From: Candidatus Liptonbacteria bacterium
GTDB lineage: Bacteria > Patescibacteriota > Minisyncoccia > UBA6257 > 2-01-FULL-56-20
Assembly (NCBI GenBank): GCA_016204335.1
Contig: JACQKU010000003.1
Location: 1-41,159 of the forward strand
Direction of reading: 5' to 3'
Length of the DNA stretch: 41,159 bases
Of this stretch, positions 13,648 to 17,745 are shown in pieces. Positions within the stretch are counted from its first letter, which is position 1. Each line of letters begins with the position of its first letter. The notes under the pieces were generated by a model, which was not told the origin of the DNA, searched no databases, and was given only the letters and a program-made list of their open reading frames with translations. The translations under genes were made by a program, and so were the position numbers.

Positions 13648-13721
13648 GCGGGCGTAGCTTAGCGGTCTAAAGCGCTTCCCTGTCACGGAAGAGATCGCCG
13701 GTTCAAATCCGGTCGCCCGCG
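13648..13721 (+). tRNA. tRNA-Asp(GUC)
   Basis: Acceptor GCGGGCG/CGCCCGC, anticodon loop CTGTCAC (GTC), T-arm GCCGG-TTCAAAT-CCGGT, discriminator G; no encoded CCA. Confidence 0.93.
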
Positions 13722-13722
13722 C

Positions 13723-14080
13723 CCTTCGACAAGCTCAGGGCTGCGGCGCTATCATTTGGATGATGGCTTATTTTGTTTATATCCTTCTTTGCGACCAGAA
13801 AACTTTTTATGTGGGCAGGACGCAAAATATAACTAAGCGCTTGAATGAACATAGACAAAGGTTTTCACCTTACACGAAAAAGTTTGCCGATATCGAACTC
13901 GTATATGTTGAACGATGCAGTAATGTTAAAGAAGCTGAGAAACGAGAACTTCAACTCAAAGGCTGGTCGGTCGCAAAGAAGAAAGCGTTGATTGCGGGGA
14001 ATAAATTGTTATTGCAAAAGTTGAGCCGCAGTCATGAACTTGACGATGCGACCGGTAAGAAATCCTGAGCCTGTCGAAGG
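13723..14080. mobile_element. Putative minimal GIY-YIG cassette with terminal inverted repeats
   Basis: Left end CCTTCGACAAGCTCAGG (13723-13739), right end CCTGAGCCTGTCGAAGG (14064-14080; reverse complement differs at one base); flanked by an exact 16-bp direct repeat ATCCGGTCGCCCGCGC (13707-13722 and 14081-14096). Confidence 0.6.
13760..14068 (+). CDS. GIY-YIG nuclease superfamily protein
   Basis: 'FVYILLCDQKTFYVGRTQNITKRLNEH' GIY-YIG signature, C-terminal 'KKKALIAGN'; stop codon lies in the right inverted repeat. Confidence 0.9.
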   Translation: MMAYFVYILLCDQKTFYVGRTQNITKRLNEHRQRFSPYTKKFADIELVYVERCSNVKEAEKRELQLKGWSVAKKKALIAGNKLLLQKLSRSHELDDATGKKS

Positions 14081-14210
14081 ATCCGGTCGCCCGCGCACGA
14101 TTGAGCACAGTTTGAGAGACCGACTTACATCGGTCTTTCAACGTTTTTTGAGGATAGCTTTAAACGAAAAACCAACGACTGCGGCTGGATTTGAACTGCA
14201 AAGAGAAGGG

Positions 14211-15029
14211 TCAATCAAAAAGCGTAAAAAGCAGCTTATGGACTTCCTCGCTCAAGCCAAAGGCTTTTGGGTATTTCATCAAAAGAAAAAATTTACTTGA
14301 CGAATGATTCAATTTTCCAAAGCAGCATTTCTTGGATTTCGTTTTCTTACCACATGGACATTCATCATTTCTGCCGATTTTGGGTACTATTCTTTTAAAA
14401 TCATCCTTTAATTTTACGTCCTGCTCGTAAAGAAACTTCGCCACTATAGGTAAATGGCAGTTCCTATAAAGCTTGCTCGTCATTCCACACGGACAAAGCT
14501 TATTGGGATCAACGGGACCATTCTTAACCTCATGCTCCAAAAACGGGATAACTCCATGAGGCTGGCCGTCTAGCCATTTGCCATAATGCTCAAAATACCA
14601 CTGGCGAATAAGGAACACGCAGATGTAATCGACCACATTCTTTACACGGGTTGCCGCTAAAAAATCGAGCTGCGGATCAAGTCTGTTTCCGTAGCATATT
14701 GCTGAATTGGCTCCTTGGTTAATGGTGAGGTGCGGGCATTTGTGTTTCGCCAGTAGGCTGTCTGAATCAAAGACTTGAGGAAAGACGATCGGATATTCTC
14801 GCGAGCATTCTACTTTGACGTTCAGTGAGTACAGTTCGGAGCCGTCCGGCTTGAACGCAGTTGCTTTCCCAAGCCAATAAATATTTTCACCCTCCTGATG
14901 GTGGAGGGTGAAAGCGGGGTACGCAGATCGCATCAGTTTTATCTCTTCAGTTAGTCTGTCAGGATAAAGCTGATACCATTGCTTGTTTTTATTCTCCCCA
15001 AGATCGTGGAGAAGAGATTCTTCCGTCAT
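14211..15029 (-). CDS. E2-like (ubiquitin-conjugating-fold) protein with two C-terminal SEC-C zinc motifs; CBASS ancillary candidate
   Basis: E2-like core 'YPIVFPQVFDSD...HKCPHLTINQGANSAICYGNRLDP' with candidate catalytic Cys; SEC-C motifs 'CPCGMTSKLYRNCH' and 'CPCGKKTKSKKCC'; ATG 15029 (MTEESLL...) overlaps the CD-NTase end by about 41 nt; the ORF-track start at 15206 is probably too far upstream. Confidence 0.7.
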   Translation of the reverse strand: MTEESLLHDLGENKNKQWYQLYPDRLTEEIKLMRSAYPAFTLHHQEGENIYWLGKATAFKPDGSELYSLNVKVECSREYPIVFPQVFDSDSLLAKHKCPHLTINQGANSAICYGNRLDPQLDFLAATRVKNVVDYICVFLIRQWYFEHYGKWLDGQPHGVIPFLEHEVKNGPVDPNKLCPCGMTSKLYRNCHLPIVAKFLYEQDVKLKDDFKRIVPKIGRNDECPCGKKTKSKKCCFGKLNHSSSKFFLLMKYPKAFGLSEEVHKLLFTLFD

Positions 15030-15990
15030 CAAAGCTTTTCTTAACGAAGACGCCTCCGCCACCAGGATAGAATCCGCCACTCTTAACGGCTTCAGCGGTT
15101 TCCAAGCCGTCGTCGGGAAAAACTTTCTGCCATTCTTTAACGGCGTCTTCTTTGCCGGCCTTTTCCAATTCCAGTGCTCTAGTCGCAAGGTCGTTTTCCG
15201 TGGCAAGAAGTGTCAAAAGCGCGCCTCTTGTTCCGTCATCATCGAGATAGCCGTCAACGCACATTTCGCTATTCGCCGGATCTTTAAGGCAGGATTCTTT
15301 GAGATACTCTGACGCTTTTGCGAAGAAAGTTCCCAGGCCGCTTGAGAACGAATCCATCTTGCCATTGCCAAGGATTTTCACCGCGAGCAATTCCACATGA
15401 AAGGATTTCACGTAATCGCATTTCTCGCGTTTCCATGCCTTGAGCATCTTTACTACCGGCACGAGCTTGCCGCCCGTCTTCTCGTTGGCCTCGGTGAGCA
15501 GCTTGCCATGAAGCTTCGGGTTCGACTTAACGGGCTTCAACGTCCTTTTGTCGAATATCTTATAGAGCTTGTCTTTCTCGATTTCAATCGCGGGAACCAC
15601 GTCGATTTGGAAGTTGCTCCCAAACCTGATCCCAATAGATCGCCGTTGCTTCTCATCTATCTCCGTGACCCCCAAATCTTTATTTTCATCCTTGATTTCC
15701 TTCAGGGCATTGGCCGTGAGATCGTGGAGTTCTGAAAGTTCCTTATCGCCGTAATCTTCATTATCGAAGGCGATGAAGAAATCCACGTCAAATTCCTCCT
15801 CGTCATCTTTCGGCTTTATGATCGTCTCGCGCGCATATGACCCCGTGAGAAAGTCATCTTTTAAGGGCAATTTCTCCCTAAGTTTTTCGCGGAGGGCATT
15901 CTGCTTTTCCTGGATGAGTTTCCGTTCATTGTCGTCGATCTTTAAATTGATGCGGCCAAGCAGGGATTCAAAAAATTCATTAAGTGTCAT
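14989..15990 (-). CDS. CD-NTase / CBASS-type oligonucleotide cyclase (OAS-like nucleotidyltransferase)
   Basis: 'FLTGSYARETIIKPKDDEEEFDVDFFIAFD' (GS-Y plus DxD) and third acidic residue in 'SNFQIDVVPAIE'; 333 aa. Confidence 0.88.
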   Translation of the reverse strand: MTLNEFFESLLGRINLKIDDNERKLIQEKQNALREKLREKLPLKDDFLTGSYARETIIKPKDDEEEFDVDFFIAFDNEDYGDKELSELHDLTANALKEIKDENKDLGVTEIDEKQRRSIGIRFGSNFQIDVVPAIEIEKDKLYKIFDKRTLKPVKSNPKLHGKLLTEANEKTGGKLVPVVKMLKAWKREKCDYVKSFHVELLAVKILGNGKMDSFSSGLGTFFAKASEYLKESCLKDPANSEMCVDGYLDDDGTRGALLTLLATENDLATRALELEKAGKEDAVKEWQKVFPDDGLETAEAVKSGGFYPGGGGVFVKKSFDDGRISSPRSWGE

Positions 15991-15994
15991 GGAT

Positions 15995-16501
15995 TTATTT
16001 TTCGTAACTTGTGGTTATCATTGACGCGACGATGTCATTCAGTAGTCTGCCGCGGAAATTCGTCACAGCAGTGTGCCTTTTGCCGTCCAAATTTTTCATT
16101 TGCTCGTCCGGGATTCGACTGAGATCATACGGAGCGTAGACAACTAGAGCGCATTGGTCGGATTTTTGCCGCAAAATTTCCTCGATGTTTGTGGCCCAAT
16201 CATGCCAAAATACTAGATACAGAGCCGCGTTTTCCGCGCGGCCAATGTCGTCGAGCTTAGTTATCTCGCAAATATTCTTCTGGTTGAATAGTTTTGAATC
16301 CAAGAGGAGGTTTCTGAGGCTGCCAACATTTTCTCCCTTTGCGAAAATCGCAATCTTGCGTTTCGCGAGACCATTACCCAGTCGCAGAAGCACTGGGGTA
16401 ATTCCTCTCGCCCACAAAATAAAACCCCAAATTATCGCGGCCGCCAAGACGATGGTGTCTATGATGCCGACAAGGGTAAGAATTGTTATGATCCAGTCCA
16501 T
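15995..16501 (-). CDS. Single-TM protein with C-terminal Rossmann-like domain; candidate CBASS effector
   Basis: 'MDWIITILTLVGIIDTIVLAAAIIWGFILW' TM then soluble domain 'KRKIAIFAKGENVGSLRNLL...AALYLVFWHDW...CALVVYAPYDLSRIP'; sits 4 nt from the CD-NTase start and 1 nt after the LexA-like stop. Confidence 0.7.
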   Translation of the reverse strand: MDWIITILTLVGIIDTIVLAAAIIWGFILWARGITPVLLRLGNGLAKRKIAIFAKGENVGSLRNLLLDSKLFNQKNICEITKLDDIGRAENAALYLVFWHDWATNIEEILRQKSDQCALVVYAPYDLSRIPDEQMKNLDGKRHTAVTNFRGRLLNDIVASMITTSYEK

Positions 16502-16502
16502 A

Positions 16503-17162
16503 CTATTCGTAAATAATTTGATATTCTTCATTTTTTTCGACCCTGATCACTTCTATTACCCTACCGAATACCTTGAAATCGCGGCGAAGAATGATCGGTT
16601 GATAAATCGGATCATTTGAAACCGGATTAAGAATAACGGCGTTGTTCGCGAAAGATATTTTTTTGATAACGGCGTTGTCGTCGATGATGGCGACCACGAG
16701 ATCGCCTTGTTCCACGTCTTCAGTCATTTCAACGAGAACAAAACTGCCGTCGGAAATCCACGCATCCACCATCGATTCTCCGGATGCCTTAATGACAAAC
16801 AGATTATCGCGTTCACCATCGACAAGATTCGAGGAAACCGTAATGTACTCATCGAACGTACGCTCTGCGATAACGCTGGGGCTACCGCAACCAGCGGAAG
16901 CGAAGACCGGGAGGGAGACAAACTCTTCTTTGTCCCCATCTTTTTTAATAAGTTCTATCCCGCGTTGAACATATCGGTTGCGTCGAATTAGACCCTTTCG
17001 CTCAAGAGCTTCAAGATATTGAGTGACAGAGCGAATTGAGCCCGCTCCTATTTCCTTTGCTATTTCGCTCAATGTAGGCGATCGTCCGCTTTTCGAAATG
17101 CGGAGTTTTATAAATTCGTACACTCGCCGCTGACTTGGGGTAAGGATTTCTTTCTGTGGCAT
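16503..17162 (-). CDS. lexA: LexA-like repressor (wHTH + S24 autoprotease)
   Basis: 'LTPSQRRVYEFIKLRISKSGRSPTLSEIAKEIGAGSIRSVTQYLEALERKGLIRRN..QRGIEL' LexA DNA-binding domain; 'FASAGCGSP' Ala-Gly cleavage site; catalytic Ser in 'ASGESM' and Lys in 'VAIIDDNAVIKK'. Confidence 0.9.
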   Translation of the reverse strand: MPQKEILTPSQRRVYEFIKLRISKSGRSPTLSEIAKEIGAGSIRSVTQYLEALERKGLIRRNRYVQRGIELIKKDGDKEEFVSLPVFASAGCGSPSVIAERTFDEYITVSSNLVDGERDNLFVIKASGESMVDAWISDGSFVLVEMTEDVEQGDLVVAIIDDNAVIKKISFANNAVILNPVSNDPIYQPIILRRDFKVFGRVIEVIRVEKNEEYQIIYE

Positions 17163-17168
17163 GAGTCC

Positions 17169-17197
17169 ATGATAGGGCATAATTTATCCGATGTCAA
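17169..17197 (-). promoter_or_regulatory. Promoter of the lexA-like/CBASS-like operon: TTGACA-17-TATCAT
   Basis: On minus strand TTGACA (17192-17197), 17-bp spacer, TATCAT (17169-17174); the expected +1 falls at about the ATG at 17162. Confidence 0.7.
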
Positions 17198-17213
17198 TAT
17201 CCACTATATCCAC
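17198..17213. promoter_or_regulatory. Direct repeat TATCCAC-TA-TATCCAC abutting the -35 box (candidate operator)
   Basis: Two exact 7-bp copies at 17198-17204 and 17207-17213, 9-bp period, immediately upstream of the -35 element. Confidence 0.45.
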
Positions 17214-17532: not shown

Positions 17533-17745
17533 ATGATGAAATTCGGCGGAAGACATAAAAGCAGTTGTAAATGTTGTCCAAATTGTTGGGAATGGGGCGG
17601 AAAGCATCTGGCGACCTGCAAGTGTCCTAATTGCGGCGAGCGGGGCGGCAAACACCAGAGCAGTTGTCGATGCCCAATCTGCAAGGACAGCGGAGGGAAA
17701 CACCAGTCGAGTTGTAAATGCCCGCAATGCGGTCAGTATGGTTAA
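17533..17745 (+). CDS. Cys/His-rich tandem-repeat mini-protein
   Basis: Four repeats GGRHKSSCKCCPNCWEW / GGKHLATCKCPNCGER / GGKHQSSCRCPICKDS / GGKHQSSCKCPQCGQYG; extended -10 TGATACAAT (17510-17518) upstream. Confidence 0.75.
   Translation: MMKFGGRHKSSCKCCPNCWEWGGKHLATCKCPNCGERGGKHQSSCRCPICKDSGGKHQSSCKCPQCGQYG

Follow-up and report, generated by a model that had tools for sequence, protein, structure and literature searches.

A LexA gene heads a predicted type II-short CBASS operon in a genome of the Patescibacteria

We analyzed a 41,159-nucleotide stretch of DNA (the window; contig JACQKU010000003.1) from Candidatus Liptonbacteria bacterium, a tiny-genome member of the Patescibacteria, in which an earlier note had pointed to a candidate cyclic-oligonucleotide-based antiphage signalling system (CBASS) whose first gene encodes LexA, the classical SOS repressor. 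The operon occupies positions 14211-17162 of the minus strand and consists of four open reading frames (ORFs) without internal stops, which encode, in this order, LexA, a single-transmembrane (1TM) effector, a cGAS/DncV-like nucleotidyltransferase (CD-NTase, the cyclase), and an E2-like protein (Table 1). The genes are packed as tightly as that note described, with a gap of 1 nt between the lexA stop codon and the effector ATG (16501), a gap of 4 nt between the effector stop codon and the CD-NTase start, and an overlap of 41 nt between the CD-NTase and E2 genes. Two genes have alternative starts: lexA has a second in-frame ATG at 17180, the +1 of the predicted promoter coinciding with 17162, and the effector gene has an ATG at 16531 that would overlap lexA, its start being taken at 16501. 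We consider it probable that the four genes form a type II-short CBASS unit, expressed from a promoter at which a true LexA regulates itself, an arrangement that would place a membrane-attacking CBASS under SOS-type derepression.

Table 1. Features of the LexA-CBASS operon and its flanks in the window.
Feature	Position	Strand	Basis
Candidate LexA operator GTGGATAT-A-GTGGATAT, exact 8-nt direct repeat, 9-bp period	17197..17213	-	Sequence feature
Sigma-70-type promoter TTGACA-17-TATCAT	17169..17197	-	11/12 consensus positions; inferred +1 at about ATG 17162 (leaderless)
lexA: winged-helix DNA-binding domain and S24 autoprotease	16503..17162	-	TIGR00498, PF01726, PF00717, E. coli LexA structures
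1TM / Cam2-like CBASS effector	15995..16501	-	PADLOC PDLC00664, AlphaFold, Foldseek
CD-NTase (oligonucleotide cyclase), GSY..DxD..D active site	14989..15990	-	PADLOC PDLC00823, SMODS, alignment
E2-like protein, candidate catalytic Cys112 (ICYG), C-terminal SEC-C-like zinc motifs	14211..15029	-	PADLOC E2 / E1-E2
Terminator-like hairpin at operon end	14172..14188	-	2 found; shuffles mean 0.6

Judged by its sequence, the first gene encodes a true LexA repressor. The protein scores 137.7 bits against the NCBIfam equivalog TIGR00498 (cut-off 110.95), matches E. coli LexA structures over its full length (2e-24), and carries the LexA_DNA_bind (PF01726) and S24 (PF00717) domains, the only Pfam matches above cut-off; no WYL, helix-turn-helix (HTH) plus metallopeptidase, or STAS/GHKL-kinase domain was found in the regulator. 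Its candidate scissile bond, C92-G93, aligns with A84-G85 of E. coli LexA, and its Ser/Lys dyad (S130 and K167) is spaced 37 apart, just like that of the E. coli protein; UmuD, too, is cleaved at a Cys-Gly bond. The equivalog score and the intact protease residues bear out the earlier description of a LexA-like autoprotease repressor as the first gene. A recA gene was found in the source genome, and a link to DNA damage would be consistent with recA, the protease residues, and the operator described below. In an alignment of 77 LexA proteins, the scissile bond and the dyad are kept in nearly all. As a separate observation, 9 of the 77 (L161-L163 and L165-L170, from a resident clade) carry Asp where Gly would follow the presumed scissile Cys; the clade's sequences read AGCD here, and cleavage may therefore occur at another site or not at all.

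The genes behind lexA resemble known CBASS components. The CD-NTase matches the PADLOC profile PDLC00823 (1.3e-54), Pfam SMODS (1.6e-18), and CD-NTases in the PDB (2e-17), and it reaches 1.1e-47 and 163 bits against NCBIfam CBASS_cyclase_b, below the cut-off of 200. Its active-site residues (GSY, D68xD70, and D130) are invariant across five aligned relatives. These profile and structure matches uphold its earlier assignment as a CD-NTase with GSY..DxD..D residues; a reading as a CCA-adding enzyme was rejected, that model giving 27.6 bits, far below its cut-off of 281. A tryptophan near the cyclase C-terminus is conserved (SWGE in the window, SWGESK in the LexA-linked locus L112), and the overlap of the cyclase gene with the E2 gene is seen in L112 as well. 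A C-terminal conjugation target has been proposed for other type II CBASS (PMC11153139), and the conserved tryptophan and the gene overlap fit such a predicted role here.

The E2-like protein is 272 amino acids (aa) long (14211-15029), not the 331 aa first assigned to it. It matches the PADLOC E2 (1.9e-13) and E1-E2 (6.7e-17) profiles, with relatives reaching 6.7e-25, and gives E=0.034, below cut-off, against Pfam RWD. The candidate catalytic Cys (ICYG) is invariant among the window, L112, and L059, and the C-terminal tail is kept in them too. Of the two SEC-C motifs proposed for this tail, both stand as Cys-rich motifs behind the candidate Cys, and only the second is SEC-C-like (Pfam 10.7 bits, below the cut-off of 20.4). 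A tblastn search of plasmids with the E2 found nothing. The source genome, 93% complete, gave no match to ThiF (E1) or Prok-JAB, while controls were positive; the earlier statement that no E1 or JAB protease ORF is present thus extends to the whole assembled genome, and the E2, if working, would act without a recognisable E1. Taken with the CD-NTase and E2 profile matches and the LexA equivalog, this agrees with the proposed type II-short-like CBASS headed by LexA.

The effector matches the PADLOC CBASS family 1TM (PDLC00664, E=1.6e-61) and a second transmembrane (TM) family (8.5e-55). Its AlphaFold model (built from 13 sequences, with two plasmid rows omitted from the structure-prediction input; predicted local distance difference test (pLDDT) 85.9) has one long N-terminal TM helix and a five-stranded alpha/beta domain, for which the top Foldseek matches were mostly receiver domains, of generic receiver/Rossmann type and none with E < 0.001. 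The single-TM protein with a Rossmann-like domain recognised earlier is therefore recovered by both profile and model. Apparently, the effector has the fold of Cam2 from type III CRISPR (clustered regularly interspaced short palindromic repeats) systems, a likeness drawn from the published architecture. On Gloeothece plasmids (L101 and L102), relatives 58% and 48% identical to the effector adjoin type III-B Cmr/Cas genes, which supports a role as a sensor of cyclic oligonucleotides and points to an effector family common to CBASS and CRISPR. The family is rare: at a loose threshold it was found in 5 of 384 genomes of the class (one match weak, with stops) and in 8 of 380 genomes sampled from the phylum, the Patescibacteria; the weak match in G345, in a frame with stops, was omitted from the counts. 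Scanning genome contigs for the effector by itself yielded no more than two loci, and scanning the viral collection for the cyclase yielded none, so most relatives came from the genome searches.

The direct repeat upstream of lexA (Table 1) reads GTGGATATAGTGGATAT in the window, and the -35 box starts on its final base. Against a Markov null, such a repeat has P=0.0014 for a period of 9 and 0.023 for any period of 6-18. It resembles the motif of the orthologous lexA genes, TGTATATAnTGTATAT, and repeats with a 9-bp period lie 5' of 7 of the 13 lexA orthologs of the window gene (null 1.0, maximum 4). Exact direct repeats with an 11-bp period lie 5' of 41 out of 63 LexA and LexA-methyltransferase genes (null 3.9, maximum 10 over 200 shuffles). 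Alpha-proteobacterial LexA uses direct-repeat operators, GTTC-N7-GTTC, that also have an 11-bp period. At L013, L053, and L114, a repeat TTTAGGT-N4-TTTAGGT lies between LexA and a divergent CBASS gene, with a close variant at L014; the gap between LexA and CBASS is about 60 bp in L013, L014, and L053, so one operator could serve both. At the same four loci, we observed a -10-like box that ends 6 nt 5' of the lexA ATG; the lexA mRNAs may thus be leaderless.

LexA recurs beside CBASS genes elsewhere in the phylum. CD-NTases were found in 26 of the 380 genomes of the phylum sample, and LexA adjoins 9 of the 25 other CD-NTase loci over cut-off (L009, L053, L054, L055, L059, L109, L112, L114, and L118; the below-cut-off CD-NTases G121 and G581 were excluded). 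In eight of these nine it directly adjoins the CBASS genes, and in L009 a 67-aa ORF lies between them. Granting one LexA per genome, 0.19 such loci would be expected by chance (P ~ 1e-13, a value that overstates the surprise because the null ignores the clustering of defence genes). LexA beside CBASS is not a chance neighbour. Further pairings occur in two public genomes (L013 and L014) and on a viral-collection contig (L209). The two are co-directional in the window, L059, L209, L009, and L109: L059 reads hsdR-hsdM-hsdS-lexA-effector-cyclase-E2/SEC-C, and L209 reads LexA-effector-cyclase, with lexA overlapping the effector start by 8 nt. Co-occurrence of the gene set in related genomes, which the earlier note had left to be checked, is thus found, with E2/SEC-C at L059 and as LexA-effector-cyclase at L209. 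LexA is divergent from the CBASS genes in L013, L014, L053, L054, L055, L112, L114, and L118. Restriction-modification (R-M) genes lie near most of the divergent cases, including HindVP, TdeIII, and AlwI endonucleases, and DpnII is found in the co-directional L009. At four plasmid CD-NTase loci (Bradyrhizobium, Methylocystis, Nostoc, and Rhizobium), LexA was not among the annotated neighbours, so the link may be lineage-biased.

Two side observations concern these loci. The LexA-linked type II-short CBASS of L112 has a different effector (L112:5374-6473; 271 aa, weakly matching a family of 2TM membrane proteins) accompanied by a 98-aa companion, and its LexA is divergent from cyclase-E2. CD-NTase/CBASS genes without LexA at L103, L104, L113, L117, L119, L057, and L058 also adjoin likely R-M genes, of type I in several instances.

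In a tree of 77 LexA genes, the CBASS label changes at least five times on well-supported branches, which implies repeated gain or loss of the LexA-CBASS link. Thirty-five of these genes are long in-frame fusions of HTH, S24, and DNA methyltransferase domains, and fusions of this kind are very common in the class (L001, many of L022-L051, and L137-L151); at L055, LexA is fused to a D12 methyltransferase. The only other LexA match in the source genome is one of them, fused to an N6/N4 methyltransferase (L001:1276-2688), with an endonuclease-VII-like gene next to it on the opposite strand. Our literature search found no description of a LexA-methyltransferase fusion.

The operon has as neighbours what we take, from their ORFs, to be ligA and a MurB-like gene, together with a tRNA-Asp and a GIY-YIG gene. 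The 3' end of tRNA-Asp recurs as an exact copy of 16 nt, 374 bp downstream (13707-13722 and 14081-14096). The two copies bracket the GIY-YIG gene (13760-14068), directly beside the CBASS operon, in what looks like a small insertion at tRNA-Asp. On the opposite strand, 5' of lexA, a 70-aa Cys-rich ORF (17533-17745, plus strand) with repeated GGKHxSSCxCPxC units had no match in Pfam.

We propose that, in healthy cells, LexA bound to the repeat would keep the lexA-effector-cyclase-E2 operon nearly silent. RecA filaments formed upon DNA damage or during phage replication would stimulate LexA to cleave itself at Cys92-Gly93, and the operon would be derepressed. The E2 may then prime the CD-NTase through the cyclase C-terminus, and upon infection the CD-NTase would make a cyclic oligonucleotide. 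On binding this product through its receiver-like domain, the 1TM protein would assemble and breach the membrane (abortive infection). Given that the LexA-CBASS pairing recurs among relatives, immunity is probably under the control of the SOS switch in these bacteria as well.

Several observations weigh against this proposal. The window LexA falls into one clade with 13 other LexAs from its order (99% support in the Shimodaira-Hasegawa-like approximate likelihood ratio test, SH-aLRT), all 13 standing alone among housekeeping genes, and its closest relative, 58% identical, is without CBASS; since the clade is otherwise stand-alone, the gene could be a resident lexA with CBASS placed behind it. 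Scored by the ortholog matrix, the window operator is modest (P 0.02-0.04), and its TGGATAT departs from the ortholog consensus TGTATAT. A genome-wide operator search found no second site with fewer than two mismatches in the source genome, where operator-like sites, counted to look for an SOS regulon, were no more numerous than in the backward control; with a single such site, a broad SOS regulon is not evident. Sixteen of the 25 other CD-NTase loci are without LexA. Finally, the last protein matches CBASS E2 profiles (2e-13), but the AlphaFold model (mean pLDDT 44.7, from three sequences) is too poor to confirm the E2 fold expected by the earlier note.

A resident type of lexA does head the CBASS operon in the source genome, and the 14-member clade and the closest relative would suit a mobile CBASS module that landed behind a resident stand-alone lexA, co-transcription being incidental to the species even if CBASS thereby became SOS-inducible. 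We regard this as unlikely, given that the pairing recurs in unrelated LexA lineages and at nine of the 25 other CD-NTase loci; moreover, the 1-nt gap and the shared promoter mean that the regulation would follow whatever the history. Less likely still, LexA could be a housekeeping-type timing controller, like the C proteins of R-M systems, that autoregulates and limits the dosage of defence genes while they become established in a new host, without any response to RecA or DNA damage. Many LexA genes of the class are fused to or adjoin R-M DNA methyltransferases, for which establishment control is the usual need, and the operator apparently lies at lexA's own promoter only; a pure timing role would nevertheless leave needless the scissile bond and Ser/Lys dyad that nearly all 77 LexAs keep. 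A third alternative, in which the operon serves suicide or stress responses to DNA damage and not defence against phages, appears improbable: the operon combines a damage-type regulator with a membrane effector, and the boundary between immune and stress pathways has been called blurred (PMC13373217), but all three downstream genes match CBASS families, relatives adjoin restriction enzymes (DpnII, HindVP, TdeIII, and AlwI), and effector relatives adjoin type III CRISPR genes.

Beyond LexA control of this operon, we tentatively suggest, with rather less than even confidence, that in Patescibacteria the LexA switch has largely been given over to immunity. Stand-alone or methyltransferase-fused LexAs would then be single-protein DNA-damage controllers of R-M and CBASS jointly, CBASS suicide being armed when RecA reports broken DNA, and both LexAs of the source genome would be of that sort. 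The silencing of suicidal immune operons is a standing question in the field, and three DNA-damage controllers of CBASS are known (CapW, CapH/CapP, and CapK/CapS), the classical SOS repressor not being among them. The window would combine a known function with an unexpected regulator, placing CBASS under the very well understood LexA in a phylum in which hardly any work has been done on defence or the SOS response. If LexA was indeed recruited to CBASS at least five times, this would tie the best-understood bacterial stress switch directly to cGAS-like immunity, and the direct-repeat operators and LexA-methyltransferase fusions open the idea to direct tests in E. coli or in vitro. In keeping with the earlier note, which knew of no such combination, a LexA-CBASS pairing was not reported in the titles and abstracts returned by our full-text literature searches; the CapK/CapS, RptR, and BrxR papers make no mention of LexA, and in the CapW paper it appears in one reference title only.

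Among the closest known systems is CapH+CapP, an HTH repressor and a metallopeptidase activated by single-stranded DNA that are encoded upstream of CBASS (PMC13373217). Both arrangements involve a promoter-bound repressor relieved by proteolysis after DNA damage (PMC13373217), which is predicted for the window; however, CapH+CapP are two proteins with the protease acting in trans, whereas the window encodes a single self-cleaving S24 LexA, presumably acting with RecA. CapW/BrxR (WYL) and CapK+CapS likewise repress neighbouring defence operons, CBASS among them, and respond to DNA damage, the role predicted here for LexA, but they are unrelated proteins that work by WYL ligand binding or phosphorylation rather than by the predicted LexA autoproteolysis. 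CapK/CapS lie downstream of R-M genes in 88 out of 443 cases (PMC13373217), and several of the LexA-CBASS loci found here are placed downstream of such genes too. With type II-short CBASS, the operon shares a cyclase and an E2 without E1 or JAB, and it differs in its LexA first gene, its 1TM/Cam2-like effector, and the SEC-C tail on its E2 (a tail also seen in L059 and L112). Cam2 itself is an uncharacterised type III CRISPR effector with an N-terminal TM and a receiver domain (TM-REC), predicted to bind cyclic tri-adenylate (cA3) (PMC11229360). By this published description, the window effector resembles Cam2 in its N-terminal TM and receiver-like domain, but it is paired with a CD-NTase where Cam2 is paired with Cas10, and the cA3 ligand is a prediction for Cam2.

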